Source: Acidobacteriota bacterium (lineage in GTDB: Bacteria > Acidobacteriota > Thermoanaerobaculia > Multivoradales > JBCCEF01). From it: a stretch of 57,164 bases of DNA. The DNA lies in NCBI GenBank assembly GCA_039028635.1, contig JBCCHV010000041.1:1-57164 (forward strand), given 5' to 3'. The translations under genes were made by a program, and so were the position numbers. Positions 36,056 through 55,684 of this stretch are shown piece by piece; positions within the stretch are counted from its first letter, which is position 1, and every line of letters begins with the position of its first letter. The notes beneath the pieces were generated by a model. It was not told the origin of the DNA. It ran no database searches and saw only the letters and a program-made list of their open reading frames with translations.

Positions 36056-36149
36056 GGTTTTGGCCCTTCGGGTTGGCGGTGATCGAGGCGCTGAGGATGG
36101 CGCGCCGGCGAGTTTATCCCGACCTTCCCTGGGAGAGAAAAGTCACCCA

Positions 36150-36172
36150 TATAGACATTCCAGAAGTCTATA
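36150..36172. promoter_or_regulatory. Inverted repeat upstream of the RiPP operon promoter
   Basis: TATAGAC (36150-36156) and GTCTATA (36166-36172) are perfect 7-bp arms around 9 bases, 7 bases before the -35 box. It is a candidate activator or repressor site. Confidence 0.45.
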
Positions 36173-36179
36173 TATGCCG

Positions 36180-36208
36180 TTGACATGAATATATTGCCAT
36201 GGTATGTT
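36180..36208 (+). promoter_or_regulatory. Near-consensus promoter of the RiPP biosynthetic operon
   Basis: TTGACA (36180-36185), 17 bases, TATGTT (36203-36208), in an AT-rich tract. It gives a leader of about 110 bases before the TTG start at 36327. Confidence 0.65.
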
Positions 36209-36326
36209 GATTATATATTGAAGTTTATCTAGTAGTACTTCTGACTTTTCGGCACTCATCGAACTCGTTGCAGCTCTCGCTTGCGAGATCTGGACGGGGA
36301 ACGAGTCTTCGCAAGGAGAGTCCGGC

Positions 36327-37097
36327 TTGGATCTAGCCCTTCGCCAAACCGTCGAAGAGATTCGTGACATTCTGATCGCCGCCAAGAGCCACTACGGCGG
36401 GGACGAAACCCGCCGCCTCGAAGAGGCTTTCGTGCGGACCGTGCGGCGCCAGCCGCTGCGCTCGCCCCACCGCCTGCAGCGCCCCGACCTGTTCATCCCC
36501 GAGCTGCGCACGATCCCCTGGATCGAGCCCGAAGAGCTCGCCGCCGCCGCCATCCTGGCGGATCACTTCGAAGAAATCCGCGCCGAGGTGATGGCGCTGG
36601 TCGATTCCGAGGGGGCATTCCACGTCTACGACGATGGCGTCGAGGATGGACAGACCGACTGGAACGCCCTCGGTCTGAAGGTCGGCGGCGGAGTGGTCGA
36701 ACGCGGCCAACGACTCTGCCCGAAGACCCTCGAAGTCATCGAGCAGCTTCCCCGAGTGGGGGAGGTGGCGATGGTCTCGGCGCTCGCCGCCGGCGGCCAT
36801 ATCGAGCCCCATTGCGGTCCCACCAACCTGCGGGTCAATCTCCACTTCGGGGTCAATATCCCGCCGGGAGACTGTGGCCTGCGGGTCGGTGGCGAGGCGC
36901 GCAAATGGACCGAGGGAGAGTGTCTGGTCTTCGATGACAGCTTCGAGCACGAGGCCTGGAATTTCTCCGACCGTACCCGCCACGTGCTGCTGATCAACTT
37001 CTGGCATCCCGATCTCAGTGACGCCGAAGTCGAAGTGCTGAATCGCGTCAACCGCGTCGTCGCGCCGCGCTACTCGCGATTCTTCGAGCACAACTAG
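36327..37097 (+). CDS. Aspartyl/asparaginyl beta-hydroxylase family dioxygenase
   Basis: This 256-residue protein has a C-terminal AspH-type domain. Two iron-binding His are visible, H162 in HIEPHCGPTN and H208 in FEHEAWN, with N167 and R169 (TNLRVNLHFGV) for 2-oxoglutarate. The family uses iron, O2 and 2-oxoglutarate to hydroxylate the beta carbon of Asp or Asn, usually in protein substrates. The start is TTG, with AAGGAGAG 7 bases upstream. As first gene of a RiPP operon it probably modifies Asp/Asn of a precursor core (for example GNNPPPD of the 42282 peptide, or the Asp-rich tail of the 40824 peptide). Confidence 0.82.
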   Translation: MDLALRQTVEEIRDILIAAKSHYGGDETRRLEEAFVRTVRRQPLRSPHRLQRPDLFIPELRTIPWIEPEELAAAAILADHFEEIRAEVMALVDSEGAFHVYDDGVEDGQTDWNALGLKVGGGVVERGQRLCPKTLEVIEQLPRVGEVAMVSALAAGGHIEPHCGPTNLRVNLHFGVNIPPGDCGLRVGGEARKWTEGECLVFDDSFEHEAWNFSDRTRHVLLINFWHPDLSDAEVEVLNRVNRVVAPRYSRFFEHN

Positions 37098-37111
37098 AGA
37101 GCGAGACGGCG

Positions 37112-38095
37112 ATGCCTTATCCCGATCCCGCGGTGACGGCGAACGTGTATTGTGCCGGCTTCCTGGACGATGTCCTGGTCTCGGTGGTGGCGCCGGCCGT
37201 CGAAGCCGCCGGCGGCGGCTACGGCTGGGTGATGCGCTACGGCAAATGTGGCGAGCACCTCAAAGTGCGCTTCCACGGGGACGAGAGCACCGCCGATTCT
37301 TTCCGCAGCGCCCTCGAGACGGCGGCCCTCGAGCTCTTCGGGCGCCTCGAAGGGGAGCCCGCGCCGGAAACCTCTTGGCGCAATCTGCCGGCCATCGACC
37401 GCGAGGACGAGGCCGCCGAGGACTACCCCGACCGCACCCTCCTCTGGACCCGCTATCGCCGCAGCCACGTCTCCTTGGGCAGCGAGCCCTTTCTCGACGA
37501 TGACGGTTATGTCGATCGATTTACTCGAGTTCTCGGTCTCGGCCTCGACCGGGCCCTGAGCACCTTCACGGAGCCGCTGCCGATCGCCCATCGGGTGCGG
37601 CAGTCGGGTTTGCTCAAGGTGGCTCTGGAGTGTGTCGGCGGCTTCGGCCTGGAGCTCGACGAGTGCGTCCTCTATCTGCGCTACCACCGGGATTGGCTGC
37701 TGCGCTCCCTGGTGCAGAGGGCGAAGGATCCGAGCGAGCGGACGGCGGCGATCATTTCGCGCTTCGACGCCAAGGCCGAGTCTCTCGGCAAGATTCTGGC
37801 TTCCCTCTCCGCTCTGGCGACCCAGCAGTGGCGCGGCGCCGTCCAGGAGCCGGAGGGCGAGCTCGGGATGGCATTCGCCAGGCTCGAGGAGTATCTCGCC
37901 GATCGCATCGACGAGCCGTCCTATGCGGTCGACCCGTTCGCTTCGAATCCGCGGTTCCCGGTGAGCTTCAAGGCCCTCCACGGCATCGCCAACCAGTTTG
38001 GCCTCGGCCCTGCCGACGAAGCCTTCACGTATCACCTGCTGTTGCGATCGGTGGCTCCGGCTCCTGCCCAAGAAGTCGTCGCGCTGACCCCATGA
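37112..38095 (+). CDS. LanB C-terminal-type (elimination/SpaB_C) protein
   Basis: This 327-residue protein resembles the thiopeptide-type bacteriocin biosynthesis family (Lant_dehydr_C). Shared features are VSVVAPAVEAAGGGYGWVMRY, then EHLKVRFHG, the RRSHVSLGSEPFL segment and a C-terminal LHGIANQFGLGPADEAFTYHLLLR. In class I dehydratases this domain eliminates glutamate from glutamylated Ser/Thr to give dehydroamino acids. Here it is a separate protein next to the N-terminal LanB, as in thiopeptide pathways. It follows the hydroxylase gene by 14 bases. Confidence 0.8.
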   Translation: MPYPDPAVTANVYCAGFLDDVLVSVVAPAVEAAGGGYGWVMRYGKCGEHLKVRFHGDESTADSFRSALETAALELFGRLEGEPAPETSWRNLPAIDREDEAAEDYPDRTLLWTRYRRSHVSLGSEPFLDDDGYVDRFTRVLGLGLDRALSTFTEPLPIAHRVRQSGLLKVALECVGGFGLELDECVLYLRYHRDWLLRSLVQRAKDPSERTAAIISRFDAKAESLGKILASLSALATQQWRGAVQEPEGELGMAFARLEEYLADRIDEPSYAVDPFASNPRFPVSFKALHGIANQFGLGPADEAFTYHLLLRSVAPAPAQEVVALTP

Positions 38096-38115
38096 AGAGC
38101 TGCTGAGACCGGTCT

Positions 38116-40821
38116 ATGGTGCTTGCCGTCGCCTCCACCGCCCAGCCACGCCTGCAAGAAGGTCCCTCGGGGGCGCCCTTTCTGCTGCGGGTCGCCGGCC
38201 TGCCGGCGGAGTGGCTGGAGTTTCCCGAGTCCTCTCTGCCGCGGGCTCACGAAGAGCTCGAGAGGCGTCTCGCCGAAGCCCGCGAGCAGTTGGTCGAGGC
38301 CCTTCACCAGGTCATCGGCACGGCACCCAAGGACGATCGTCGATTGCTCCTTGCGATCAGGCGCGATGCTTTCAACGGTCGCTCGCTGAGCCGCCCGCGG
38401 TTGGCGATCCTCGATCAGAGGCCGGCCCTCGCCGGGCTCGCGCTTCAGGTGGTGGCTCTCGAGGACGACCTGGCGGCGGCGATCGCCGAGAGCGACGCTT
38501 GGTGGGCTCGGCGCCGCGCCCTCGAGCGCGATCGCCTGCTCGCCGCTGCGTCCGATCCGGCGGTGATGCGCGGCTTGGGCTTGGCGAGTCCCGCGCTGGC
38601 TCGGGAGCTGAAGCGGCCGAAGCCCAGCCGGCGGCGCAGCCGGCGCCGACGCCTCGAGCAAAGCCTGCTGCGCTATGTCAGCCGCACGGTTTTCAAGCTT
38701 TCACCGTTCTCGACCTTGACTCGGCTCGCCCTCGGCAAGGTCGGCAACCAGGGTATCGACGCATTCGGCTTGACGGCGGAGACCTGGCGACCGCGCTCCT
38801 TGACCCGGCTCAACCGGTTCGTCCTCGAGCAACTGGTGGCGATGCTCGACCAGCGGCCGGAGTTCCGGCGTCACCGTCCTGTCGAGGTCAATCCGACATT
38901 GCAGCGGGTGGCCGAGGAGCGCTACCGCTGGCTGCTGCCTGGAGGTTGGGTTCGGACAGAGGCCGGTGATTTTCGCTTTCGCCAGGATGCCATGGTGACG
39001 GTCACCTTGGCTGGACCTCTGGTCGAGGGCATGTTGGACGTGCCGCCGTCCGCCGGGACTCGCTTCGGCGAGCTCGCGGCGCAGCAAGCGGATCGCCTCG
39101 GGCGGGACGTCACCGCGACCCTCGAGCGCCTCGTCGAGATCGGTTTTCTGCTGCTGCCGCCGCTGTGGGCGATCAACCAGTCCAGACCGGAGGCGACGTT
39201 GGCGCGTTTCGTCGCCGGCGTCGGAGGGGATTTCGGCACGCTGGCTGCGGAGCTCGCCGATCTGGATGGTGCCCTCCAAGGCTTCGCCACCGGCAGCGCC
39301 GGCCTCGAAGAGAGGCTGAAACAAGTGTGGGAAGGGGCCGTTCGCTTGGCGGCCGATGAGGGGTCCGTGGGGGCTTCGGCTCCTGGGGTACAGGCCTGCT
39401 TCGAGGATGTTTTCCTCGACGGTGACGGTGACGGCACGGTGGCGCAGGTCGACCCCGAGGCGGTCGCGACGGTGATCGCCGAAAGCTCGGCCATCTTCCG
39501 ACTGTCGGCCTTCCTGAGACCGCAGCTCGATTTCCGACTCACTCTGCGGGAGGCCTTCGACCGACGTTGGCCGAAGCGGGAGCGGGTCCCTTTGCTCGAT
39601 CTCTTCGCCGATGTTCAGGGGCTGTGGAAGGATTTCCGTCGCTTCGAGATCGCCAACCGCGATGCCGACGTCTGCCCGAGCGCCTTCAATCCCCTCGGTT
39701 TGGCCGACATCTCAGCGCTGCAGCGGCGTCGCGAGAACCTCTGGCGGCGCTTGGCGGCGGCGGTCCAGCCGAGCCCGCAAGGATCGAGTCTCGATCCCTC
39801 CGCGGTGGAGGCGCTGGCGACGGAGCTGCCGGCCTTCGCCGATCCGGGGGTCGGCCCCTGTGTGTTCTCACAGCCGATGGGCGGGGGGCGCTGGGTCGTC
39901 AACCGGATGTTCGAAGGCACCGGGCGCTACTCGAGTCGCTTCACGCCGGCGATGGCTCCCCGAGAGCGTCGCCAGTTCGTCAGCGCTTTCGAGGCGCGCT
40001 CCCGGCTCACCGATGAGCGCGAGATCCTCGACCTGCTGTGCACCCGTGGTGGTCTGCTCGGTGTCCACGAGCTGCAGACGCCGCGGGCCCTGTCTCTGCC
40101 GGGAGAGCGCGTCGCGGAAGGCGAGGGGCGCACCCTCGGGCTCGAGGATCTGTGGGTTCAGCGATGTCCGGATTCTGGGCTGCTGACTCTCATCGGTCCC
40201 GACGGCCAGTCCTTGGCGCCCGCGCACCTCGGTACCACCGACTACATCTTCCTTCCCCTCTCGATTCAATTTCTCAGTCTCTTCGGTCCGGGTCAGATCT
40301 CGCTGGTTCTGCCCAATGGACCGGTGGCGCAGGTGGCGGACGGCATTCGCCTCTACGATCGCCTCTCCCTAGGCCATTTGATCCTCAAGCGTCGGCGCTG
40401 GGTGGTCTCTCTCAGTGGCGAGCTTGCCGAGATCCTCGAGCGTGAGGGGGCAGAGGCCTACCGCGCTGTCGTCCGGTGGCGTCGGCGCCATCGGCTGCCG
40501 CGCCACGTCTTCGCCCTCGAGCGAATTCGCCATGCGGTCCTCGACGGGATTCACAAACCGCAGTACTTGGACCTCGAGTCGCCGTCTTTCGTCGAGCTCT
40601 TCCGCACCATTCTCGAGGCTGGCGGCAAGCGCGTGACCCTCGAAGAGATGCTGCCGGAGCCGAGTGATTTGCCGCGCGACGCAGGGGGGCGATCCTGGGC
40701 TGTGGAGGCCTGTTTCGATTCGCTGGTTCTTTCCCCAGGGCCAGCCTGTGATGCAACCGGAGCCACCGGCTCCGACCACCAACCGGGTCGCTGCGGCGAT
40801 CCCAGACCTCATGGAGGTTAG
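38116..40821 (+). CDS. Lantibiotic dehydratase, glutamylation-type N-terminal LanB
   Basis: This 901-residue protein covers the Lant_dehydr_N region only. The family's basic helix and TPFG-like motif appear as LLRYVSRTVFKLSPFSTLTRL (about 185-205), LTRLNRFVLEQLVAML follows, and the end (about 830-860) is typical for the domain. It should attach glutamate from glutamyl-tRNA to Ser/Thr of the precursors, with the 37112 protein doing elimination. Stand-alone LanB-like proteins can instead be peptide aminoacyl-tRNA ligases, but the partner gene makes a split dehydratase more likely. The last codons hold the ribosome binding site of the first precursor. Confidence 0.82.
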   Translation: MVLAVASTAQPRLQEGPSGAPFLLRVAGLPAEWLEFPESSLPRAHEELERRLAEAREQLVEALHQVIGTAPKDDRRLLLAIRRDAFNGRSLSRPRLAILDQRPALAGLALQVVALEDDLAAAIAESDAWWARRRALERDRLLAAASDPAVMRGLGLASPALARELKRPKPSRRRSRRRRLEQSLLRYVSRTVFKLSPFSTLTRLALGKVGNQGIDAFGLTAETWRPRSLTRLNRFVLEQLVAMLDQRPEFRRHRPVEVNPTLQRVAEERYRWLLPGGWVRTEAGDFRFRQDAMVTVTLAGPLVEGMLDVPPSAGTRFGELAAQQADRLGRDVTATLERLVEIGFLLLPPLWAINQSRPEATLARFVAGVGGDFGTLAAELADLDGALQGFATGSAGLEERLKQVWEGAVRLAADEGSVGASAPGVQACFEDVFLDGDGDGTVAQVDPEAVATVIAESSAIFRLSAFLRPQLDFRLTLREAFDRRWPKRERVPLLDLFADVQGLWKDFRRFEIANRDADVCPSAFNPLGLADISALQRRRENLWRRLAAAVQPSPQGSSLDPSAVEALATELPAFADPGVGPCVFSQPMGGGRWVVNRMFEGTGRYSSRFTPAMAPRERRQFVSAFEARSRLTDEREILDLLCTRGGLLGVHELQTPRALSLPGERVAEGEGRTLGLEDLWVQRCPDSGLLTLIGPDGQSLAPAHLGTTDYIFLPLSIQFLSLFGPGQISLVLPNGPVAQVADGIRLYDRLSLGHLILKRRRWVVSLSGELAEILEREGAEAYRAVVRWRRRHRLPRHVFALERIRHAVLDGIHKPQYLDLESPSFVELFRTILEAGGKRVTLEEMLPEPSDLPRDAGGRSWAVEACFDSLVLSPGPACDATGATGSDHQPGRCGDPRPHGG

Positions 40822-40823
40822 TT

Positions 40824-40982
40824 ATGAGCGACGAGAAGAACATGGACACCATCGACGAGCTCGACATCGAATCCCTCTCCGACGACGATCTCGACGACGT
40901 CTCCGGCGGCGGCAGCTTCACCTGTTCGATCTTCAAGTGCAAGATCGAAGCGGAAGCCGACGACGCCGACTCGGACAACTAG
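40824..40982 (+). CDS. RiPP precursor peptide 1
   Basis: This 52-residue peptide starts two bases after the dehydratase stop; GGAGG inside the dehydratase gene precedes the ATG by six bases. The acidic leader ends in LSDDDLDDVSGG (residues 18-29), a double-glycine export signal. The core after it is G-SFTCSIFKC-K-IEAE (30-44) plus an Asp-rich tail ADDADSDN. Ser31, Thr33 and Ser35 can be dehydrated, and Cys34 and Cys39 can form thioether rings. ELDIESL in the leader may be the dehydratase recognition box. It is nearly identical in core to the next peptide. It is too short for ordinary gene callers. Confidence 0.85.
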   Translation: MSDEKNMDTIDELDIESLSDDDLDDVSGGGSFTCSIFKCKIEAEADDADSDN

Positions 40983-41006
40983 ATCTCGCACGGACTGTTC
41001 AAATCC

Positions 41007-41026
41007 CGAGCTCTCCCCAGGGCTCG
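41007..41026 (+). terminator. Stem-loop between the twin precursor genes
   Basis: CGAGCTCT / AGGGCTCG (one G-U pair) around CCCC. It probably stabilises or partly terminates the mRNA. Confidence 0.4.
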
Positions 41027-41046
41027 ACGCAGTGAAAGGACTGATC

Positions 41047-41211
41047 ATGAACGAAGATCCGACCACCCTGAAGGACGCTCTGGACACCATCAAGGAGCTC
41101 GACATCGAGTCCCTCACCGATGAGGATCTGGACGACGTGTCGGGCGGCGGCAGCTTCACCTGCTCGATCTTCAAGTGCACGATCGAGGCGGAGGAAGTCG
41201 CCACCGAGTAG
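41047..41211 (+). CDS. RiPP precursor peptide 2
   Basis: This 54-residue paralogue of precursor 1 has AAAGGA before its ATG. The leader has the same ELDIESL box and ends in LTDEDLDDVSGG (23-34). The core G-SFTCSIFKC-T-IEAE (35-49) matches precursor 1 except Lys to Thr after the second Cys, and the tail is EVATE. Thr45 adds a possible dehydration site. Strict conservation of SFTCSIFKC against a variable tail marks that nonapeptide as the functional part. Confidence 0.85.
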   Translation: MNEDPTTLKDALDTIKELDIESLTDEDLDDVSGGGSFTCSIFKCTIEAEEVATE

Positions 41212-41270
41212 AGCCTTCGCGCCCGGCACCGTCGTTGTTTGACCCTCCGCCAGGCGCGGAAGCTCTCAGA

Positions 41271-41334
41271 CCGGGGATTCCCTCCCAGGAGTCCCCGGAT
41301 CTCGATCCTCGGCCGGGGTCATTCCCGGGCCGAG
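41271..41334 (+). terminator. Two strong hairpins after the precursor genes
   Basis: CCGGGGA / TCCCCGG (41271-41298) and CTCGGCCGGG / CCC-GGCCGAG (41308-41334, one bulge). Placed after the precursors and before the next gene, they could cause partial termination so that precursors are made in excess over what follows. Confidence 0.45.
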
Positions 41335-41415
41335 GGTCTCGGCGCCGGCGGTGGCGCCGAATCGATCGGTCGAGTCGCTCGCCCGCGGCAGACCACGAGA
41401 TTGGAGGTCCGAACT

Positions 41416-42132
41416 TTGAGCCCAGTGGCAGCGACTAGCCAGCAGGCATCAGCGGCCCAGATCCAAGATCTGGATTCGATCTTTCGCCTGGCGGCCCTTT
41501 CGGGACCCGAGGGAGCGGCCTGGGTGGGCGAGTTTCTCGCTCCCGAGGCCTGCCGCAGCCTGAGTCGATCGCGTCGCGCCATCGGGTTGTTGCGCCAGGG
41601 GAGGATCGAAGCCGGTCGTCGCCAGCTCGACCTCCTCGAGGCGGAGATGAGCGGTCTCCACCCGGACCTTCTGGAGGTGGTTCAGAGGGCCCTCTACAGC
41701 GCTCGCGCCTATCAGCTCTATCGCGAAGACGATCTGGAGCGAGCGGACGCCGCCCTCGGTCTCGCCGATGAGGCGGTGTCGCGGGCGATCGCCAAGCGCC
41801 CCTTCCTGATGGGCCTCGCCAACCATTCCTATGATTTCTGCCTGCAGCGGGCTCGGATTGCGCGCAAGAGCTGGCGCTGGGACGAGATGTCTCGCCACAT
41901 CGAGCGCGGACGGGGAATCCTCGACAATCGAGTCCCCATCTGTCGGCTGGCCGACGGCAAAGAGATCTTCGTTTCTTCGGTGGATGAGTTCTTTCGCTCG
42001 ATTTCCCTCGACGACACCGTCGCGCCACAGGAGGTGGCCGACCTGGTCGACGATGAGCGTCGGCGATTCCTATTCGAGTACGCGGTGCGCGAGAACTACG
42101 TCCTGCCAGGCTTCGTGGTTCCGTTGCCCTGA
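41416..42132 (+). CDS. Hypothetical helical protein of the RiPP cluster
   Basis: This 238-residue protein starts at TTG 41416 with GGAGG 8 bases upstream; the frame is open to 41239 but lacks a good start there and covers the hairpins. It is predicted mostly helical, with TPR-like pairs (AIGLLRQGRIEAGRRQLDLLEAEM, YREDDLERADAALGLADEA, CLQRARIARKSWRWDEMSRHIERG). I do not recognise the family and see no catalytic motif. Position between precursors suggests a leader-binding or scaffold role, which is speculative. Confidence 0.65.
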   Translation: MSPVAATSQQASAAQIQDLDSIFRLAALSGPEGAAWVGEFLAPEACRSLSRSRRAIGLLRQGRIEAGRRQLDLLEAEMSGLHPDLLEVVQRALYSARAYQLYREDDLERADAALGLADEAVSRAIAKRPFLMGLANHSYDFCLQRARIARKSWRWDEMSRHIERGRGILDNRVPICRLADGKEIFVSSVDEFFRSISLDDTVAPQEVADLVDDERRRFLFEYAVRENYVLPGFVVPLP

Positions 42133-42182
42133 ACCTTTTTGGGCTGTCGCGGCGTTCGACTCGTAGCGCGTCGATCCCCCCC

Positions 42183-42211
42183 TTGACATGACGCGACTTC
42201 GGACCTATTTT
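42183..42211 (+). promoter_or_regulatory. Promoter of the Nif11-type precursor gene
   Basis: TTGACA (42183-42188), 17 bases, TATTTT (42206-42211). RNA would start near 42218, 64 bases before the ATG. A perfect AAGGAG lies 6 bases before that ATG. Confidence 0.65.
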
Positions 42212-42281
42212 GAAAATGAGTGATTCTGCACTCCAAGATTCACCGCAGTGCGCGTTCAAGTAGGGTTCTAAGGAGAATTCC

Positions 42282-42533
42282 ATGAGCCTAGAAGACCTCA
42301 ATCGTCTGGCCCTCGCTCTATCCGAGGACCCGGCCCTGAATGACGAGTTCCAGAGTCTCGAAGAGGATCCCGCGGTGTGGGTCGCCTGGGCCCAGACCAA
42401 GGGGTTCACGCTGACTTTGGAAGAGGCGGAGCAGCTCGGCGGAGAGATCTCCGACGAAGATCTCGATCAGGTGGCCGGAGGTTGGGCCGGCAATAATCCG
42501 CCGCCCGATCCTCCCCCAGGGGGAGGCCCCTGA
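42282..42533 (+). CDS. Nif11-type RiPP precursor with proline-rich core
   Basis: This 83-residue peptide has a Nif11-like (NHLP-class) leader: MSLEDLNRLALALSEDPALN at the start, AWAQTKGFTLTLEEAEQL in the middle and ISDEDLDQVAGG (56-67) at the cleavage site. The core is only WAGNNPPPDPPPGGGP (68-83). It has no Ser, Thr or Cys, so dehydratase chemistry cannot act on it; Asn71, Asn72 and Asp76 could be hydroxylated by the 36327 enzyme. A strong private promoter and ribosome binding site imply high expression. Confidence 0.85.
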   Translation: MSLEDLNRLALALSEDPALNDEFQSLEEDPAVWVAWAQTKGFTLTLEEAEQLGGEISDEDLDQVAGGWAGNNPPPDPPPGGGP

Positions 42534-42769
42534 CGGCCTGATCGATCCGCCTTCGAACCGATCACGGCTCGTACAGCGGTTTCCGTTGCGGCCGATGGCT
42601 GGGGAGCTGGCTCTTGGGTCGTCGGTCGCCATTCGCGATTCCCGGGCGACCCCCGTAGGAGTGTCCGGACATCCTGTCGGTTGAGCCCAACCCGGATCGT
42701 GGGCAGAACCTCGGTCAGTGGCTACCACTGATCCTGCAGCACCTTGCCCCGATCTCTGCGGAGAGCGCC

Positions 42770-43714
42770 GTGCTGGCAGATCGTGCCGGCAGAGTCGGCG
42801 ACCATCTTCTCGCGGCGCTCGAGGTTCGCCTAGCCGATCAGCGAGCGCCCGTCGACTTGTCGGTCCGGCTGACTCGGTCCGGTGAGATCGACCCTCTGGC
42901 CGCGAACCTACCGGCCGGTCCGGCGAGATCTTTCCTGCGCTTCGTTTCGGGGCGCTGGGCATCCCGTCGGCCCAATCCCTGGCAAGACTTGCCGGCAGTC
43001 TGGGTGGAGTTCGACTGCGGACCGAAAGACGACCCTGCCCGCCCGGTTATCTGTATCGAGCTGGCGCCGACCTTCTCGGAGCGCTGGCTACGCCGTGAGT
43101 TGCTGCCGGCCCTCTTGCTCGAAACACCGTCGAAGGCCCTTTGGTCAGGCCTGGTGGAGGTCTTGCGTCGACTCCCGTCGGGGAGTCGCCCGCTCTACCT
43201 CTTCGCCCTCTGGGGACGTCCAGGGGCAGATCTGAGGGTGGAGATCGTCGGTCTTCCGGCGGACCGCTGGCCAAGGTTCTTTCGAGGCCTCGGGGAGCCT
43301 CTGCGGGCCCAGTCGAGTCAGCTACCTAGTCGAATCCTGAGCTCCGTCGAGCGACCTCATCTCTCCTTCGACCTGCAGCCCGAAGGCCTCGGAGAACGGC
43401 TCGGTTTCGAAGGTTCTTTCCGGCGACAGCCGGCGCGGGACGTTCGCTGGAGCAAGCTCTTCGACGACCTTGTACGTCGGGACTTGGCAACCAGGCCTCG
43501 AGCCGACGCGCTGCTTGCCTTTGCCGGAGTCGATAGCCTGCGCTCCCGCGCCAAAGGCTGGCCGGTGGGCCGGATCGGCCGGCTGGTGCGCTGCCTGAGC
43601 CACGTCAAGCTGGTCGCGCGGCCGGAGAATCTCGAGGCCAAGGGCTATCTCCTGGTACAGCATGTCGGAGACTCGGTCTCGCGACGAAACCTTCGCCGTC
43701 ACGGCCGAGGGTGA
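42770..43714 (+). CDS. Hypothetical protein of the RiPP cluster
   Basis: This 314-residue protein counts from the first usual start (GTG 42770). The same frame is open back to 42659 with a protein-like sequence (LSVEPNPDRGQNLGQWLPLI), and TAGGAG stands just before a non-standard ATC/CTG start near 42671-42674, so the true N terminus may be earlier. Mixed alpha/beta with VWVEFDCG, VICIELAP, LYLFALWG and LSFDLQPEG strands. No known motif. The ordered position at the end of the operon suggests a maturation or binding role; function unknown. Confidence 0.65.
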   Translation: MLADRAGRVGDHLLAALEVRLADQRAPVDLSVRLTRSGEIDPLAANLPAGPARSFLRFVSGRWASRRPNPWQDLPAVWVEFDCGPKDDPARPVICIELAPTFSERWLRRELLPALLLETPSKALWSGLVEVLRRLPSGSRPLYLFALWGRPGADLRVEIVGLPADRWPRFFRGLGEPLRAQSSQLPSRILSSVERPHLSFDLQPEGLGERLGFEGSFRRQPARDVRWSKLFDDLVRRDLATRPRADALLAFAGVDSLRSRAKGWPVGRIGRLVRCLSHVKLVARPENLEAKGYLLVQHVGDSVSRRNLRRHGRG

Positions 43715-43730
43715 AGCTCCAAAGGGAGCT
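43715..43730. terminator. Small stem-loop between convergent RiPP transcripts
   Basis: AGCTCC / GGAGCT around AAAG, lying between the two stops. Without a U-tract it is a weak barrier, so the two operons may read into each other. Confidence 0.3.
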
Positions 43731-46700
43731 CAGGCGGGGGTGCGGTCGGCGCTTCGGGTGATGGCGGCAGGGCGCGGAACCTTCACCCCAAGCTGCTCGA
43801 GGAGGCTGTGGGCGCGGCGGCGATGCTTGGCACCGGCATTGCGATCCCCGACCTGCTCGGCGAGCTGGGCGCGGTCGAGGAGAGTCTGCGCCTCTTCGAA
43901 GGTGACCCCGAGGGCGGCGAAGCGCTCGATCGACTGGTGCAGGTGATCATCCGCGGCGACCTCATGGCGGCTCATTTCGAGACGCCCGAGGGTGCGATGG
44001 GCAAGGGCGGTGCCGAACTGGAAGTGACAACGCTCGGTCCACTCGAGAGCCCGCTCGGCCGCTTGCCGGGCCGCCTCTCCGGAGCCGCGGGCGAAGAGGA
44101 CTTCGGCACGGTAGGACTCGAACCATCCGGCGAGCTGCAACATGCCGGCTCCACCGAGCATCTCGACGGACTCGGTGAGCGCCGCGTCGGCCTTCTCGAG
44201 CTCGCCCTGAATCCAGTAGGCGTAGCCGAGGAACCCGAGGGCGGCGGCTCGATTGAGCGGATCCTTGGCCCGCTCGAGGCCGCTCTGACACTGCTCGACT
44301 CCGCCCTCGCTGTCGCCGAGGTTGGCCAGGAAGTAGCCGGTGCTCCACGACGGATCGAGGCGATAGTCCTCCAGGTCGCGAGAGATCTGCAGGGCCTCGT
44401 CCATGCACTCGAGGGCACGCCGGTGACGCCCCAACATGTGATGGTGGAAGCCGGCCACCCACAGGGCCTGACCCTTCCACCAACGCTCGCCAGCGCGTTC
44501 GAAGGCGGCCAGGGCGCGATCGCCTTGGGTGATGCCTTGCGCGAAGCGGCCGGTCCAGAAGCCTTCCCGCGACAGGACGTAGCAGGCTTTGCCGGCGGTC
44601 AGCTCGTCTTCGGCAGTGCCGGCTTCGGCGAGGGCGGTCTCGGCCCAGCGGCACGCCGCCTCCTGATCGCCGAGATAGCTCTGGGTGTGGGCCAGCCAGA
44701 AGAAATAGCGGCCGCGGAGGGCTGGATCCGCGATCTCCTCGATGAGCTGTCGATGGTCTTCGAGGAGGGCCAGGGTCTGTGGAAATTCGGCTAGCGGGAG
44801 GAGGGAATCGGCGAGCTGGAGGACCAGCGTGAGGGTGGTCTCAGCGCGGCTTTCGATGGCGAGATCGGAGGCCCTTTCGAGCGCTTCTCGCAGCGCACGG
44901 GCGGCTTCCTGATGGGCGTAGTCGGCAGCCGCCGCGGCGGCGAAGCGAGCCAGATAGTCCACCCCTCGAGCGGCATCGGGCGAGCGCGAGAAGTGGTACG
45001 ACAGGCGGTCGAGCACGTCTTCCGGCTGCTCGCGATAGACGGCCTCGAAGGCCCGCCCAGAGCGTTCGTGCAGCTCACGGCGACGCGCCGTCAGCAAGCT
45101 GTCATAGATCACTTCCTGGGTCAGCGCATGCTTGAAGTAGTAGGTCTCTTCGCTGTTCGGAGAGGGGTAGAGGAACTCCCAGTGACTGAGCTCCGGGAGT
45201 AGTCGCCGGGCGCTCGAGTCGACCCCTTCGAGAACTCCCAAGGGGAACTCCCGGCCGAGCACCGAAGCCGACTGCAGAAGGCGCTTGTGGTCTTCCGGCA
45301 GGCGATCGATGCGGGCCATCAGCACACCCTGAACGGTGTCCGGCACGCCGCCGTCGTCGAGCTCGGCGAGGTTGCGCACGATCTCTTCGAGAAAGAATGG
45401 ATTGCCTTCCGCTTTCGAGAGCAGCTCATCGGCCCGCTCGGCGGGTAGCCCGTGCTTTTCGAGCAGGGACTCGGCGAGGTCGCGACTGGCGTTCGCCGAC
45501 AGGGACCGCATGGCGATCTGGGTAGCGAAAGACTTCTGCATCCACTCCGCTCCGAAGCCCGAGCGATAGGTCAGCAGCACCAGAACCGGGGCGCCGGCAA
45601 TGGCTTCGATGAAGGAAGTCAGAAACTCGCCGGAGGTGGCGTCGACCCAGTGCAGGTCCTCGATTTCGAGAATCACCGGGCGCAGCCGGCTGGCGTTGAG
45701 AAAAACGCGCCGCAGAGTGGCGAAGGTGCGCTCCTGGACCGCCCGGCCGGTGAGCTCCGGGAGCTCGTCGCCGGCCCCGAGAAGGCGCATCAGGTAGGGC
45801 AGGTGCTCGGTCGGCTCACAGCCCAGCAGCTCGAGATTGCGCTCCAGCTTGTGGCGCACCGTCTCCGGCCCGTCGCTTTCCGAGATCCCTCCTGCCTGGC
45901 GCAGAAGGTGGGTCAAGGGCAGATAAGGGGAGCCGCTGCCGTAGGACAGACAGCGACCTCGCAGGAGAGTGGCGCGGGCGGGATCGAGGCGGCGGTGGAA
46001 CTCGACGAGCAGACGGGACTTGCCGGTGCCGGCTTCTCCGGTGACGCCGATGACTTGGCCCTGGCCACCGAAAGCCTGCTCGCAGCGCTCCTCGAGCGCT
46101 CCGAGCTCGCGCTCTCGGCCCACGAAGGGCGTCAGGTCCTGAGCTTGGGAGGTCTCTTTGCGGCGCCGGCTGAGCACCTGGAAGGATTGAATCGGCTGCG
46201 ACTTTCCCTTGACCCGCGTGGGCGGTAGGGGAGCGAGCACGAAGTCGCTTCGCACCTGTCGTTCGACGGCCTCGCTGACCAGGATCTGCCCGGGCTCGGC
46301 GAGGCCCTGGAGACGGGCGGCGAGATTGGTGGTATCGCCGACGGCGGTGTAGTCCATGCGCAGGTTGTCGCCGATGCCGCCGACCACCACCGGTCCCATG
46401 TTGAGGCCCATGCGGAAGAGCAGCTCGGTGCCGGCCGGTGCGCCGAGGCGATCCTGCTCGCGCTGCAGCCTTCGCTGCAGGGCGAGGGCCGAAAGGACCG
46501 CCCGGCGGGAGTGGTCCTCGTGGGCGATGGGGGCTCCGAACAAGGCCATGAAGCCATCGCCGAGGAACTGGTTGACGGTGCCTTCATAGCGGTGAATCTC
46601 TTCCAGCGAGATCTCGAAGAAGTGCTGGAAGATGTCGTGCATGGTCTCGGCACCGAGCTTCTCGGCCGTTGCCGTGGAGTTGGCGAGATCGCAGAAAAGC

Positions 46701-47092
46701 ACCGTCACCGGCTTGTGCTCGCCTTCGAGAGCGCTGGCCGACGACAGCACCTTCTCGCGCAGGTGATCGGGGGTGTAGGTGCGAACCGGGGCCGCTGCCA
46801 GGGAGGGATTCTGGGGCGTCGCCGCCGGAGGCGGTGGCGTCGGTCCCGGGGTCGTCGCTCGTGGTGACGCCACTCCCATGGGCGTCGGTCCCGCCATCGC
46901 CGGTGGCGACGGCCCGGCGGCCGGGGCGGTCGCGAAGGCCGAGCTCAATGGGGTGCCGCAATGGCCGCAGAAGCGGAATCCGGCGGGAGCCGCAATGGCA
47001 CAGCTCGGACAAGCGGCGGCGAGGCCGACGCCGCAATGGCCGCAGAATTTCATCTCCGGCGGGCTGTCGAACTGGCATTGCGGGCACTTCAT
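43730..47092 (-). CDS. Adenylate/guanylate cyclase with zinc ribbons, AAA ATPase and TPR repeats
   Basis: This 1120-residue protein has two zinc ribbons at 3-50 (CPQCQFDSPPEMKFCGHCG and CPSCAIAAPAGFRFCGHCG) and a Pro-rich linker to 105. A class III cyclase domain spans about 125-310, with metal Asp135 (FCDLANST) and Asp179 (GDGFMALFG) and Asn256/Arg260 (DTTNLAARL). An AAA_16-type ATPase follows (Walker A GEAGTGKS 352-359), then TPR repeats to the end. It would make cAMP or cGMP in response to a signal sensed by the ATPase/TPR part. It follows the cyclic-nucleotide-binding gene by 11 bases, so producer and sensor are paired. Confidence 0.88.
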   Translation of the reverse strand: MKCPQCQFDSPPEMKFCGHCGVGLAAACPSCAIAAPAGFRFCGHCGTPLSSAFATAPAAGPSPPAMAGPTPMGVASPRATTPGPTPPPPAATPQNPSLAAAPVRTYTPDHLREKVLSSASALEGEHKPVTVLFCDLANSTATAEKLGAETMHDIFQHFFEISLEEIHRYEGTVNQFLGDGFMALFGAPIAHEDHSRRAVLSALALQRRLQREQDRLGAPAGTELLFRMGLNMGPVVVGGIGDNLRMDYTAVGDTTNLAARLQGLAEPGQILVSEAVERQVRSDFVLAPLPPTRVKGKSQPIQSFQVLSRRRKETSQAQDLTPFVGRERELGALEERCEQAFGGQGQVIGVTGEAGTGKSRLLVEFHRRLDPARATLLRGRCLSYGSGSPYLPLTHLLRQAGGISESDGPETVRHKLERNLELLGCEPTEHLPYLMRLLGAGDELPELTGRAVQERTFATLRRVFLNASRLRPVILEIEDLHWVDATSGEFLTSFIEAIAGAPVLVLLTYRSGFGAEWMQKSFATQIAMRSLSANASRDLAESLLEKHGLPAERADELLSKAEGNPFFLEEIVRNLAELDDGGVPDTVQGVLMARIDRLPEDHKRLLQSASVLGREFPLGVLEGVDSSARRLLPELSHWEFLYPSPNSEETYYFKHALTQEVIYDSLLTARRRELHERSGRAFEAVYREQPEDVLDRLSYHFSRSPDAARGVDYLARFAAAAAADYAHQEAARALREALERASDLAIESRAETTLTLVLQLADSLLPLAEFPQTLALLEDHRQLIEEIADPALRGRYFFWLAHTQSYLGDQEAACRWAETALAEAGTAEDELTAGKACYVLSREGFWTGRFAQGITQGDRALAAFERAGERWWKGQALWVAGFHHHMLGRHRRALECMDEALQISRDLEDYRLDPSWSTGYFLANLGDSEGGVEQCQSGLERAKDPLNRAAALGFLGYAYWIQGELEKADAALTESVEMLGGAGMLQLAGWFESYRAEVLFARGSGEAARQAAERALEWTERCHFQFGTALAHRTLGRLEMSRHEVAADDHLHQSIERFAALGVTFEEAQTLLDRAQLAEQVGDRNAGAKHRRRAHSLLEQLGVKVPRPAAITRSADRTPA

Positions 47093-47650: not shown

Positions 47651-50521
47651 CTAGACCACCTGTCGTTCGATGAGGCGAGCGAAGACTCCGCCGGCGGCGG
47701 CGAGCTCTTCGTAGGTACCGGTTTCGACCACCCGCCCCTTGTCGATCACCACGATGCGGTCGGCGTTGACGATGGTGCTCAGGCGGTGGGCAACCACAAT
47801 GCGGGTCGCTTTGAGGTTTTCGAGGCTACGGCTGACGATCTCTTGGGTGCGATTGTCGAGGGCGCTGGTGGCCTCGTCGAAGAGCAGGATGCGGGGTCGG
47901 TGGACGACCGCTCGGGCGATCAAAAGGCGCTGCTTCTGGCCCCCGGAGAAGGTGCCGGCACCTTCGCTGATCACCGTGTGCATGCCCATCGGCATGGCCT
48001 GGATGTCTTCTGCCAGGCCGGCCATGGCGGCGGCCTCCCAGGCCGCCTGAATGCCGAGATCGGAGCTGCCGACGATGTTGGAGTAGATATCGCCGACCAT
48101 CGGCTGGCCATGCTGCAGAACCACCCCGATCTGTCGCCGGACGGACTGCACGGCGAGGGTCGAGAGATCCTGGCCGTCGAAATAGATCGAGCCCGACTGG
48201 GGCGATTCGAAGGCCAGGATGAGGCGAATGCAGGTCGACTTGCCGGATCCGGAGGGGCCGACCAGGGCGACGAACTCGCCGGCGCCGGCGCGGAAGGAAA
48301 CGTCATCGAGAATCAGCGGACCATCGTCTTCGTAACGGAACGAGACGTGGCCGAACTCGATATCGCCGGCGAGCTCGCCGGCGTCGGCCTTGTCGACGTC
48401 GACCTCCGGTGGCGTCTCCAGGATCGGCTGAACGCGCTCGTAGATCGGCACCATGGTGAGGATGCTCGAGAACACCCCGAGAATGGCGAAGGACGAGGCC
48501 AGGAACTGGCCGAAGGCGGCGTTGAAGGCCAGGAACTCGCCGATCGGCAGGTCGACCCGGGAAGAGAAGCCGACCATCGCGAAGATGGCGAGGGAGGCGA
48601 TGACGCCGTAGAAGCTGTTAAGGGCGGCCTGCGCGTTGGTGATCCGACGCACCTCGAGGGTCTGCTCGCGCTGCTCGGCGAAACGCTCGGCCCAGCGCGA
48701 GTAGGCGCGCTGCTCGGCGCCGCTGATGCGCAGCTTCGGCAGGCCGTTGATGATGCCCAGGAGGAGGCTGGCGATCTTGCCCTGGAGCTCAAAGAGGGGG
48801 CGCTGGCGGCGCACCTGGATGTAGGTCAGGGCACCGGTGACGAGCAGCAGCACCGCCACCACCAGGGTGGCGATGAGGGCCAGCGGGCGGCTGAAGTAGA
48901 AGAGCAGCCCGAAGCTGAAGACCGAGAAGATGGCGGTCAACAGGGAAGTGGTGACGTTGCCCATGAAGAGCTCTCGGATCGAGTCGAGGCCCATCGACCG
49001 GTCGGCGAGATCGCCGACGCTGAAGCGCCGGAAGAAGGACACCGGCAAGGACAGCAGGCGGTCCCAGACGGCGGCCTGGACGGTGCCATCGACCTTGCCA
49101 CCGAGGCGCAGGACGGCGATGCTGCGGGTGATCTGGAAGATGCCGGCGGCAAGGGCACTGATGATCAAGCCGAGGGTCATCTGGGCGAGCTGCGAACGGT
49201 CGGCGCTGGGGATGACGTGACCGAAGATGCGACCGGTCATCAGTGGCACGACCAGCCCGACCAAGCCGCCGGCCACACCCATGGCGAGAATGGTGGTGAG
49301 GTCGCGGCCACGGCCGCGGAGGGCGGCGCGCGCCAGATCGCGGACTTGAACGGCGCGCTCCGGCAGCGGCGGGTAGAGCATGAAGGCGCTACCGTCGAGG
49401 CGCTCGGCGAGGGCGCCGTCGACCTTGTGGCGCTCGCCGGTGGAGGGATCGACCAGGTGGTATCGGCGCGCCGAGATCGGTAGCAGGGCGACCGGGCGAG
49501 GTTCCGCCTCGTCGTCTTCGGCGAGGTAGGCGATCAGCGGGCCATTGTCCTGACGCCACCAATCGTCACGCAACAGCACGCGGCGCCAGCGCACTCGGGA
49601 AGCCGAGCAGATCTCCTCGAAGCGCAGACTGCGCCGTTTGCCCTCCGGCGACTCGGCCGGGGTCTGGATGGTGAGGCCGAGGGCCTGGCCGACCATTCGG
49701 CAGACGGCGAGGATCGGGTCTTCGGTGGCGGCGCTGGCGGCCGCCGCGGTCGCCCCGCCGTCGTCGCCGAGCACGCGGGTGAGGCGGCCGTGGGCGGCGG
49801 CGAGACCGGCGCGATCGCGATGGCTCTGCCGCGCCACCCGCTCGCGGTCGGCTTCCGCTTCGCCCGCGAGGTGCTCCTCGAGGTAGGCGATGTAAGTGCG
49901 GTGGAACTCCTCCAGGGCGTTTCCCAGCCGGCCATCGGCGACCAGGGTGGCGGTGCTCTGGGCGCTCAGGCGAGAGTCCGCCGCTCCCTTCACCCAGGTG
50001 CGGCGCCCGACCGGCAGGGTCTGGCCATCGAGTGGGAAGGAGGCGCGTCCCAGAAAGCGAGCCTCGCCCTCCAGGAGTCTCACCCACTGGACACCGCGGT
50101 CGCTGCGGGCGACGGTCTTCTTCTTTTCGAGAACCGTCTCCTCGCCGGCGGAAAGGGCGATGAAGCGCTTCGGCGGTGGCGGCGGGGAGACGCTGTCGAA
50201 GAGCAGCTCGAGCCAGCCGTCGATGCCGCGATGGAGGTCTGCCGGCGGCGTCCCGGCGGTGACCGGCGCGATTGTCGAGGGGACGGCGCTGACCGCGATC
50301 AGCTGCAGCTTTCCGCCTTCGACTCCACAGAGGGCGTCGCCGGTCTCGGCGGATCCGAGGTGCAGGCGCCGGCCCCAGCCACCGTCTTCGGTGGCGAGCC
50401 GGGCGAAGACCTCGAAACGACCGGAGGTCACCAACCGCGGCGGCGAGCCCGCCGGCAGGGGTAGCACCTCGTTGCCGGCGAGGGCCGGTGGACCGGTGGG
50501 GGGCTGGAGAGGATCGCTCAT
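47651..50521 (-). CDS. NHLM bacteriocin-system ABC transporter, ATP-binding protein (second ABC)
   Basis: This 956-residue protein has a long N-terminal region (about 1-410) typical of the NHLM type 2 ABC proteins, a six-helix transmembrane domain (about 415-700) and an ATPase with Walker A GPSGSGKST, signature FSGGQKQRLL and Walker B ILLFDEATSALD. There is no C39 peptidase. In NHLM/NHLP systems it works with the peptidase ABC protein and HlyD/TolC in exporting modified peptides with Nif11 or nitrile-hydratase-like leaders, which matches the precursor at 42282. Confidence 0.9.
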   Translation of the reverse strand: MSDPLQPPTGPPALAGNEVLPLPAGSPPRLVTSGRFEVFARLATEDGGWGRRLHLGSAETGDALCGVEGGKLQLIAVSAVPSTIAPVTAGTPPADLHRGIDGWLELLFDSVSPPPPPKRFIALSAGEETVLEKKKTVARSDRGVQWVRLLEGEARFLGRASFPLDGQTLPVGRRTWVKGAADSRLSAQSTATLVADGRLGNALEEFHRTYIAYLEEHLAGEAEADRERVARQSHRDRAGLAAAHGRLTRVLGDDGGATAAAASAATEDPILAVCRMVGQALGLTIQTPAESPEGKRRSLRFEEICSASRVRWRRVLLRDDWWRQDNGPLIAYLAEDDEAEPRPVALLPISARRYHLVDPSTGERHKVDGALAERLDGSAFMLYPPLPERAVQVRDLARAALRGRGRDLTTILAMGVAGGLVGLVVPLMTGRIFGHVIPSADRSQLAQMTLGLIISALAAGIFQITRSIAVLRLGGKVDGTVQAAVWDRLLSLPVSFFRRFSVGDLADRSMGLDSIRELFMGNVTTSLLTAIFSVFSFGLLFYFSRPLALIATLVVAVLLLVTGALTYIQVRRQRPLFELQGKIASLLLGIINGLPKLRISGAEQRAYSRWAERFAEQREQTLEVRRITNAQAALNSFYGVIASLAIFAMVGFSSRVDLPIGEFLAFNAAFGQFLASSFAILGVFSSILTMVPIYERVQPILETPPEVDVDKADAGELAGDIEFGHVSFRYEDDGPLILDDVSFRAGAGEFVALVGPSGSGKSTCIRLILAFESPQSGSIYFDGQDLSTLAVQSVRRQIGVVLQHGQPMVGDIYSNIVGSSDLGIQAAWEAAAMAGLAEDIQAMPMGMHTVISEGAGTFSGGQKQRLLIARAVVHRPRILLFDEATSALDNRTQEIVSRSLENLKATRIVVAHRLSTIVNADRIVVIDKGRVVETGTYEELAAAGGVFARLIERQVV

Positions 50522-52796: not shown

Positions 52797-54038
52797 CTAG
52801 AGGCCGAGGTTCTGCCGCACCTTCGGCATGATCAGGTGGATGGGCCGATCCTCGCGCACCACCACCCGACCATCGGCGAGGGTGCCGCTGCTGATCTCGA
52901 GATCGGGGCCCCGGCTCGACGACCAGCGGTAGCCGGTGGGGGTGTTGGTGTCGCCTTCGAGGGTGACGTCGATCTGGATCAGGGGGCCCTCGGCGAGCAG
53001 CCGCGAAACCAGATCCTCGTTGGCCAGCAGGCGCAGCATGCCGCGGCGGGTCGAAGGGAACTCCGCCGCCCAATCGACGGTGCCGATCATGTAGCCGTAC
53101 TCTTCCCGTTTGACCGTCGACGGCGAGACCCGGACGGTCATCCCCGGCGCCACTTGTTTACCCTCCGATGCCGGCACGAAAAGCACCGCCACCAGGTCTT
53201 CCTCCGGAACTTCGAGGGACAGGATCGGCGTGCTGCCGTCGACCACGTCGCCGGGATCGACCATCAGCTCGAGCACCCGGCCCTGCCGCGGCGCCACGAT
53301 GTTGAGGTTCTCGCGCAGCCGGGCCTCGAGATCGGCGATCTCGTAGCCGAGGTTGCGAACTTCAGTGCGCTGAGCCTCGATCTCTTTGAGGATGCTCTGC
53401 TCGGTCTCCAGGCGACTGAGCTCGAGACCATCGAGGTCGAGACGGTTGTTGGCGATGCGGTCGCGGGTGGCGTTGAGCTCCTGCTTGGTGGTGACCAGCT
53501 TCTGCTGCGTGATCAGGCCATCGGCGAGCAGCCCTTCTTCGGCGGCGATGCGTTCTTCGAGCAGGCGGCGGTCGCTCTCCAGAGTGGCCAGGGCCTGCTC
53601 CAGCTGAGAGCGCTGCTGGCGACGATTCCGCGCTTGCAGTCGGCGCTGCTCATCGGAGAAGGAGAGCAGCTTGTCGAGCTCCTCCTGCTGGGTATCGCGC
53701 TTGGCCCGGGTCTCGGCGAGCTCCCGCTCGAGGGCCTCTTGTCGCACCGTCGCCACCACCTGGCCGCTGCGAATCGCGTCGCCCACCTGGACGCGGACAT
53801 CGGCAATTTGGCCGCTGGCTCGCGCCACCAGGTCGGAGACGCCGCCGCGGCGCAGCAGGATGCCTTCGCCGCCGGCTTCCGTCGGCAACGATCCCAGGAT
53901 TCCCCAAGCCAGGGTAGCGGCGAGCAGGCAACCGATAGCGCCGAGGGCGAGCCAGCCTACCGGCGTGGTCACCCGCATCAGCTGGTCGAGCTGCTCCGGG
54001 GAAGAAAGTCTTTCGAGGGCGACTTTGCGGAAGATCAC
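52797..54038 (-). CDS. HlyD-type periplasmic adaptor of the NHLM exporter
   Basis: This 413-residue protein has one N-terminal helix (about 27-50), a lipoyl-like half (GQIADVRVQVGDAIRSGQVV), a long coiled-coil hairpin (about 95-250) and a second half with PRQGRVLELMVDPGDVV. It bridges the inner-membrane ABC protein to TolC. The frame is open to 54425, but GTG 54038 overlaps the tolC-like stop (GTGA) and starts the family sequence. Confidence 0.9.
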   Translation of the reverse strand: MIFRKVALERLSSPEQLDQLMRVTTPVGWLALGAIGCLLAATLAWGILGSLPTEAGGEGILLRRGGVSDLVARASGQIADVRVQVGDAIRSGQVVATVRQEALERELAETRAKRDTQQEELDKLLSFSDEQRRLQARNRRQQRSQLEQALATLESDRRLLEERIAAEEGLLADGLITQQKLVTTKQELNATRDRIANNRLDLDGLELSRLETEQSILKEIEAQRTEVRNLGYEIADLEARLRENLNIVAPRQGRVLELMVDPGDVVDGSTPILSLEVPEEDLVAVLFVPASEGKQVAPGMTVRVSPSTVKREEYGYMIGTVDWAAEFPSTRRGMLRLLANEDLVSRLLAEGPLIQIDVTLEGDTNTPTGYRWSSSRGPDLEISSGTLADGRVVVREDRPIHLIMPKVRQNLGL

Positions 54039-55597: not shown

Positions 55598-55655
55598 TCT
55601 TCGAGGATCGAATCCTTTTTTCTTCTTTGATAGAAATCTGATGGCAAAATTGTAT

Positions 55656-55664
55656 TGCTATATG
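55656..55664 (+). promoter_or_regulatory. Extended -10 candidate in the AT-rich tolC/protease divergent region
   Basis: TGCTATATG matches an extended -10 (TGnTATAAT) in 4 of 6 box positions plus TGn. It lies 11-20 bases before the possible ATG starts at 55676 and 55685, so the leader would be very short. The flanking 55610-55675 is AT-rich. A minus-strand promoter for the export operon is expected there too but is not clear. Confidence 0.3.
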
Positions 55665-55684
55665 ATCAATTTATCATGGAGAGC

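Follow-up and report, generated by a model that had tools for sequence, protein, structure and literature searches.

Twin precursor genes with an identical SFTCSIFKC core in a probable RiPP cluster of variant LanB type from an Acidobacteriota genome

Architecture of the locus

The window—the whole 57,164-nucleotide stretch analysed here—belongs to an Acidobacteriota metagenome-assembled genome (G000, 95% complete). Two small genes, pepA and pepB, close an apparent operon in the order AspH–X–LanBN–pepA–pepB, with same-strand gaps of 14, 20, 2 and 64 bp (Table 1). A gene of no named family (Y), a neighbouring peptide–prenyltransferase system and a set of export genes follow. The opposite-strand kinase/cyclase-like protein scores 300 bits against the TOMM kinase/cyclase family (cut-off 706), has homologues at loci L032, L033 and L200, and is followed on that strand by a cNMP-binding protein. 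Judged by its sequence, the C39 exporter would be expected to cut after GG. Beyond the efflux gene, positions 55655–56857 encode a DUF7005 protein (family of unknown function; match 4e-131).

Table 1 Genes of the precursor locus and its surroundings, in window coordinates
Feature	Position	Strand	Basis
AspH-type 2-oxoglutarate hydroxylase	36327–37097	+	PF05118 E 2.2e-44; start TTG
X, divergent member of the LanB elimination/pyridine-synthase superfamily	37112–38095	+	PF14028 4e-7
LanBN, split LanB, putative glutamylation half, 901 aa	38116–40821	+	profile against PDB
pepA, precursor peptide 1	40824–40982	+	ATG 2 bp past LanBN stop
pepB, precursor peptide 2	41047–41211	+	
Y, no named family	41416–42132	+	no Pfam match
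Nif11-leader peptide ending GG-WAGNNPPPDPPPGGGP (neighbouring system)	42282–42533	+	TIGR03798 4.8e-11, above cut-off
ABBA-fold aromatic prenyltransferase (neighbouring system)	42659–43714	+	predicted fold
Zinc-ribbon, guanylate-cyclase, AAA and TPR protein	43730–47092	opposite to the peptides	TIGR03903, sub-cut-off
NHLP export ABC transporter, subunit 2	47651–50521	-	TIGR03797 8e-280, above cut-off
C39 peptidase/ABC exporter	50529–52718	-	Peptidase_C39 4.4e-33, ABC_tran 3.7e-29
HlyD-type adaptor	52797–54425	-	HlyD_3 1e-11; longest frame, start overlaps next gene
Outer-membrane efflux protein	54035–55597	-	OEP 1.5e-34

Related loci are named as follows: L031 (contig C20 of G060, a same-genus, sister-species genome), L032 (G023), L033 (G024) and L034 (G091) carry LanBN relatives; L200 and L204 lie on contigs C13 and C21 of G060, L230 on contig C201 of G026, L231 on contig C391 of G086 and L155 on contig C69 of the window's own genome. 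Homologues of Y occur near X or its precursor at L032, L033, L230 and L231, with no significant match in L031 or L200.

AspH is the sole PF05118 match of its genome, and across the five LanBN genomes this family is found in two, at the window locus and on two other contigs of G024. L031 and L034 encode a JmjC_2 protein. A probable 2-oxoglutarate oxygenase thus adjoins LanBN at three of the five loci, the families differing. Asp/Asn hydroxylation of the shared core by AspH was rejected: SFTCSIFKC contains neither residue, and nor does the pepB tail.

Twin precursors share an invariant core

pepA encodes 52 residues (MSDEKNMDTIDELDIESLSDDDLDDVSGGGSFTCSIFKCKIEAEADDADSDN) from an ATG preceded by GGAGG, and pepB 54 residues (MNEDPTTLKDALDTIKELDIESLTDEDLDDVSGGGSFTCSIFKCTIEAEEVATE) from an ATG preceded by AAAGGA, with an in-frame GTG upstream at 41032. 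An initial annotation of the DNA had described twin tandem genes sharing ELDIESL, an acidic stretch and the nonapeptide SFTCSIFKC. Both frames are present in tandem and intact, these elements are as described, and the identical run is longer than had been recognized, covering 18 consecutive residues (DLDDVSGGGSFTCSIFKC). IEAE follows the core directly in both peptides, beyond which the tails diverge; overall identity is 69%. Within the genome, a pepB query matched only its own gene and pepA (E 9e-17), with nothing further at E 10; this speaks for duplication and not chance. A pepB search of plasmids gave nothing or little.

Codon comparison of this one paralogue pair gives one synonymous and no non-synonymous difference over the nine core codons, five and four in the leader, and 2.5 and 6.5 in the tail. 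On rounded counts, the core is more tightly constrained than the tail (Fisher p 0.02) and not demonstrably more so than the leader (p 0.31). This is modest codon evidence for constraint on the core, to which gene conversion could contribute. DNA able to encode FTCSIFKC is present in one of 396 genomes sampled from the phylum, the window's own, where it occurs twice, and in none of the others.

Neither peptide has a Pfam match, and in NCBIfam there are three sub-cut-off matches to other bacteriocin families. Both carry an SGG junction ahead of the core, and the cluster contains an exporter with a C39 peptidase domain. As an intact tandem pair ending an apparent operon near that exporter, pepA and pepB are very probably RiPP precursors. 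The analysis upholds the annotation in placing precursor-like peptides, their cores joined through GG, next to a LanB-type gene, and the GG-linked core recurs in all six precursors checked that accompany LanBN genes (both window peptides and those of L031–L034).

LanBN is a putative glutamylation half

LanBN alone has no LanB-family match in Pfam or NCBIfam. A profile of five relatives (A2) finds in the PDB 6ec7 (TbtB, titled lantibiotic dehydratase domain protein) at 7e-61 and the goadsporin protein 9jhq at 5e-39. By these matches LanBN is a split LanB, putatively the glutamylation half. Its motif RYVSRTVFKLS resembles the Y80-R83-R87-T89 pattern of NisB (numbering from PMC4341554), the last two places being K and S; across five sequences Y is replaced by F once and K by Q once.

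At E ≤ 1e-5, 15 of the 148 class genomes contain a LanBN match, the window's own among them; at E 1e-20, 10 of 396 genomes sampled from the phylum do. Besides the window there are four strong relatives, in G060, G023, G024 and G091; the nearest, from G060, is 37% identical. Profile scanning of named genomes yielded 65 loci from 87 candidates, those beyond three of the four strong relatives being weak (2e-31 or worse) and mostly from Streptomyces and kin, and a single-sequence scan of named genome contigs yielded 31 stretches with no relative among them. At a more distant LanBN-like match in G303 (1e-44), a scan for GG peptides found none.

GG-linked cores at the related loci are AEIDEGDCDSWWCCSNTNA (L031), RGDDCSCTYTTGACSSSETEGPSEV (L032) and WCSWRRCSNAPEEDSTPEEQ (L033). 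L034 has a precursor whose GG-linked core consists of repeats ending GTC. Specifically, L034 7829–8128 encodes a core of five Ser/Thr/Gly-rich units, each terminating in A/G-T-C residues (ATC or GTC), and this precursor adjoins LanBN, a canonical eliminase and the JmjC_2 protein. At L032, X and LanBN are fused in one 1,254-aa frame.

No LanC match and no intact eliminase in the genome

PF05147 (LanC) is matched in six of the eight genomes searched; the window's genome and G060 are the two without a match. G023 has a LanC match directly before the X–LanBN frame, and G091 has four, all on contigs other than that of L034.

The window's genome encodes two PF14028 proteins, X and a protein on contig C69, and neither keeps the full set of glutamate-eliminase residues. 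Seven canonical PF14028 proteins, a set that left out the Xc-type proteins of L032, L033 and G060:C20:36310 and weak matches, all keep R784, R786, E823, R826, S958, H961 and R966; because the motif E..RYGG served to locate five of these rows, their E823 and R826 do not count as independent evidence. Equivalents of E823, R826 and R966 are absent from all seven X proteins, which keep R786 (seven of seven) and H961 (six of seven). The window X has Ser at both the E823 and R826 places and keeps the H961 equivalent. The C69 protein has Q at the R826 place and I at that of H961. It is an orphan (L155 4078–5073) with no RiPP gene recognized nearby, and the pattern used found no GG peptide within 15 kb. 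For orientation, the NisB mutants R786A, R826A and H961A glutamylate without elimination (PMC4979651).

Among the four close relatives, G060, G024 and G091 each have, within about 2 kb of LanBN, a PF14028 protein in which every checked eliminase residue is kept; the contig of the fourth ends shortly afterwards. PDB searching with the L033 eliminase (phmmer) gave nothing or little; of two further profiles, A8 matched one unrelated protein (E 0.04) and A3 matched TbtD at E 0.086 together with three unrelated proteins. Since the genome is 95% complete, an eliminase or LanC in its missing part is possible, as is elimination in trans by a changed protein. With an intact eliminase not found in the genome, dehydration of the core is itself putative.

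X forms a clade of its own

In a tree of 15 rows, X proteins form their own clade apart from the eliminases (support 100/100; long-branch warnings for the C69, G023 X and G024a X rows). We modelled X from four sequences, at low confidence (pLDDT 57.6, pTM 0.54). The first eight Foldseek hits are TbtD, PbtD and [4+2] aza-cyclase entries (E 2e-4 to 9e-4), superposing at TM 0.34–0.41 and 13–14 Å, with MadB, NisB, TsrL and MibB behind them (4e-3 to 1e-2). VIA-align places NisB first (Z 11.3, 193 aligned residues, 4.3 Å), then MibB (Z 9.8), PbtD, TbtD and the aza-cyclase (Z 9.5, 208–221 aligned, ~5.6 Å) and MadB (Z 8.3). The predicted fold is that of the eliminase/pyridine-synthase superfamily, the two methods favouring different branches. 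A firm assignment as pyridine synthase, suggested by Foldseek, was weakened by VIA-align and dropped.

Searching the 148 class genomes with a profile built from six X proteins gave matches in 18 at 0.001; matches at or below 1e-30 are in the window's genome, G060 (two), G024 (two), G023, G026 and G086 (two pieces). At G086:C391, a 5.6-kb contig, X is in two pieces and the pattern used found no precursor. G026:C201 has a same-strand run of X, LanM (DUF4135 2.5e-117, LANC_like 4e-60), Y, a C39 exporter homologue, a 357-aa protein resembling prenyltransferases by eye (no significant match) and a precursor with core PTCLCWSCDN. LanBN has no match at this locus or elsewhere in G026.

The company that X keeps bears on its function. 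LanM needs no glutamate elimination, and X occurs with it at G026:C201; taken with the loss of the E823, R826 and R966 equivalents, this disfavours X as a glutamate eliminase, which by sequence it probably is not. That X goes with either dehydratase type points instead to a step on the dehydrated peptide, although the retained R786 and H961 make a changed eliminase possible. Nor is X simply a stand-in for LanC, since L032 and G026 contain both X and a LanC domain. A broader proposal has X founding a new family of Dha-acting cyclases that lost elimination and form a ring between Cys and Ser, or between Ser and an aromatic residue, in C-x4-C cores, downstream of LanB or LanM and free of LanC in this lineage; we would think this unlikely on present comparisons.

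The sister locus has X and a peptide

G060:C13 (L200) is syntenic with the window, its flanking genes lying in the same order. Identities are 84% for an aspartyl-tRNA synthetase and 82% for a PspA-like protein (both named by eye), 75% for ABC2, 72% for the cNMP-binding protein and 56% for the cyclase. The RiPP genes differ far more, X being 35%, the Nif11 peptide 47% and the prenyltransferase 36% identical. Window positions 36056–43729 and L200 5800–9100 thus correspond to a hypervariable RiPP cassette between conserved flanks.

L200 encodes X and a peptide of the CSIWCC type (core ICSIWCCSGQIERSPDIQ); LanBN, AspH and Y all lack a significant match there. LanBN is therefore perhaps inessential or trans-acting there: the sole LanBN of G060, which sits on contig C20 together with another X, an eliminase, a JmjC protein and a peptide, could act in trans. 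Occupying the same place in the genome, this locus is a natural comparison for the window's. A second twin-precursor pair lies on contig C21 of G060 (L204 4629–5000), with an identical core start (TCNTCYSSYEPE) and differing tails; it adjoins two proteins (1827–2954 and 2951–4498) with HExxH motifs, HECMH and HEGLH, seen by eye.

A C-x4-C core recurs with X

C-x4-C enclosing Ser and Trp/Phe is found at five of the six X loci with a known precursor, a rule chosen post hoc, for which a shuffle product of 1e-9 was computed without L032. L032 is the locus whose core has no C-x4-C, and there X is fused to LanBN and LanC is adjacent. Within the five loci scored for core patterns (the window, L033, L200, L031 and G026), S-x3-C occurs at four, all except G026; C-S-x3-C at three; and S-x4-S at three (L031, L033 and L200). 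Spacing in the window core is S-x3-S, with S-x4-T in addition in pepB, and the only further Ser of pepA lies in its tail.

The initial annotation had foreseen up to two thioether rings. One S-x3-C ring remains plausible, recurring at four of the five loci, with the qualification that LanC and an intact eliminase have no match in the genome. The second (S1–C4 beside S5–C9) did not hold up as a general feature. The window core is unusual because Ser1 and Thr3 stand ahead of its first Cys: no Ser/Thr precedes that Cys in L033, L200 or L031, and G026 offers only an adjacent Thr. With no usable partner elsewhere, the second ring is not a conserved feature and is particular to the window.

A predicted prenyltransferase system adjoins the peptides

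The frame at 42659–43714 has no Pfam match; it opens at 42659, and homology starts upstream of its first ATG/GTG/TTG (42770). Its model (pLDDT 75) is that of an ABBA-fold aromatic prenyltransferase, with IptA, AmbP3 and LimF as first Foldseek hits and a VIA-align Z of 17.6 to CymD. Among 14 fetched loci with homologues, eight have a GG peptide with Trp first after GG, and at the remaining six the pattern used found no such peptide. The Nif11 peptide at 42282–42533 and this protein likely represent a family of RiPPs prenylated on Trp. A lanthipeptide precedent for Trp prenylation guided by a Nif11 leader exists (MppC/MppE; PMC12715784). At L170, a 713-aa frame (49–2190) carries the prenyltransferase homologue in its second half, the first half resembling, by eye, a terpene-cyclase-type helical repeat.

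A candidate route to a single ring, and its alternatives

The reading we prefer, tentatively and with a probability of about 40%, is a LanBN-dependent route to one thioether. LanBN would bind the leader around LDIESL and load glutamate from Glu-tRNA onto a core serine, for which Ser5 of SFTCS5IFKC9 is the likeliest. Dehydroalanine (Dha) would remain once glutamate is lost, and the cysteine four residues on would capture it, giving one five-residue S-x3-C ring without LanC. X is the candidate enzyme for work on this dehydrated peptide; perhaps AspH hydroxylates a residue, and the C39 exporter would remove the leader after GG. What is observed are the genes with their order and intact frames, the C-x4-C core that recurs, the lack of a LanC match and the eliminase residues missing from X; the chemical steps, the glutamate eliminator and the ring itself we infer.

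The cysteines could owe their conservation to something else. They stand at fixed spacing in all five scored loci while the serine position between them varies, and a C4–C9 disulfide formed after export, with LanBN adding only Dha/Dhb or glutamate, accounts for that conservation without a thioether and sits easily with a genome in which LanC has no match and an intact eliminase was not found. Such a product leaves little for LanBN and X to do, however, and S-x3-C is kept at four and C-S-x3-C at three of the five loci; we hold it to be rather unlikely. A further possibility is that X is a [4+2] cyclase joining two Dha residues into a pyridine macrocycle, the cysteines being secondary. At L031, LanBN and X are accompanied by a PF14028 protein whose eliminase residues are intact, in a genome with no LanC match; the Foldseek hits for X are led by such enzymes; and the S-x4-S of L031, L033 and L200 equals the spacing in MroA1, a peptide with LDI..GG in its leader and a twin, MroA2 (PMC9247985). 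The window core, limited to S-x3-S (and S-x4-T in pepB), would nevertheless need an 11-membered ring, and MroD closed none, its smallest being 14-membered (PMC9247985). Cysteine recurs here and is lacking in the MroA peptides, NisB outscores the pyridine synthases in VIA-align (Z 11.3 against 9.5) and the Foldseek superpositions are poor, while the GG junction and C39 exporter suggest proteolytic leader removal and not leader elimination. We regard pyridine formation as improbable for the window peptides; for the relatives, of which L031, L033 and L200 share the MroA1 spacing, it is worth considering.

Use of LanBN in the manner of a PEARL, adding an amino acid to the peptide C-terminus in a tRNA-dependent step, seems very remote. 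A LanBN with no intact eliminase in the genome and an oxygenase alongside is in keeping with it, PEARLs typically having no elimination domain (PMC11962472). Against this, constraint falls in the core, whereas the C-termini of pepA and pepB differ; relatives carry eliminases alongside LanBN; and the PDB relatives are glutamyl enzymes, though the PDB may contain no PEARL.

Relation to known systems

With class I lanthipeptides of the nisin type the cluster shares, by sequence, a LanB-type Glu-tRNA dehydratase half and a leader followed by a Cys/Ser core; the S-x3-C spacing is that of nisin ring A. It differs in a genome with no LanC match and no intact eliminase residues, and in the additional hydroxylase and X. 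The solved relatives found by the LanBN profile are the split LanB proteins of thiopeptides and goadsporin (TbtB, GodF), whereas no azole-forming gene was recognized among the window neighbours. NHLP/Nif11 export systems have in common the NHLP export ABC protein, the C39 exporter and a Nif11 peptide in the cluster; unlike their precursors, pepA and pepB match no Nif11 or NHLP leader model.

The pyritide cluster mro of Micromonospora rosaria (PMC9247985) offers another comparison: its LanB is split into a pair, its cyclase belongs to the eliminase superfamily, it has two precursors and LDI..GG appears in the leader. Counterparts here are the split LanB, X as a further protein of the eliminase/cyclase superfamily, the twin precursors and the leader stretch, and three relatives (L031, L033 and L200) also share S-x4-S. 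The window itself has core cysteines and a C39 exporter, no intact eliminase and no S-x4-S, so that the pyritide Ser spacing of S-x4-S or wider is not reached by its core.

No description of this cluster type was met in the open PMC papers ranked by our literature searches, and we take the locus to be a LanB-type cluster of a new variant, carrying a pair of RiPP-type precursors. Should dehydration and ring closure of the core take place, this lineage achieves them with no visible LanC and with an eliminase-fold protein short of elimination residues. Were that true, LanC-independent lanthionine formation, or further Dha chemistry on the LanB-elimination fold, would become directly testable in a small system, a pair of short peptides with three or four genes.
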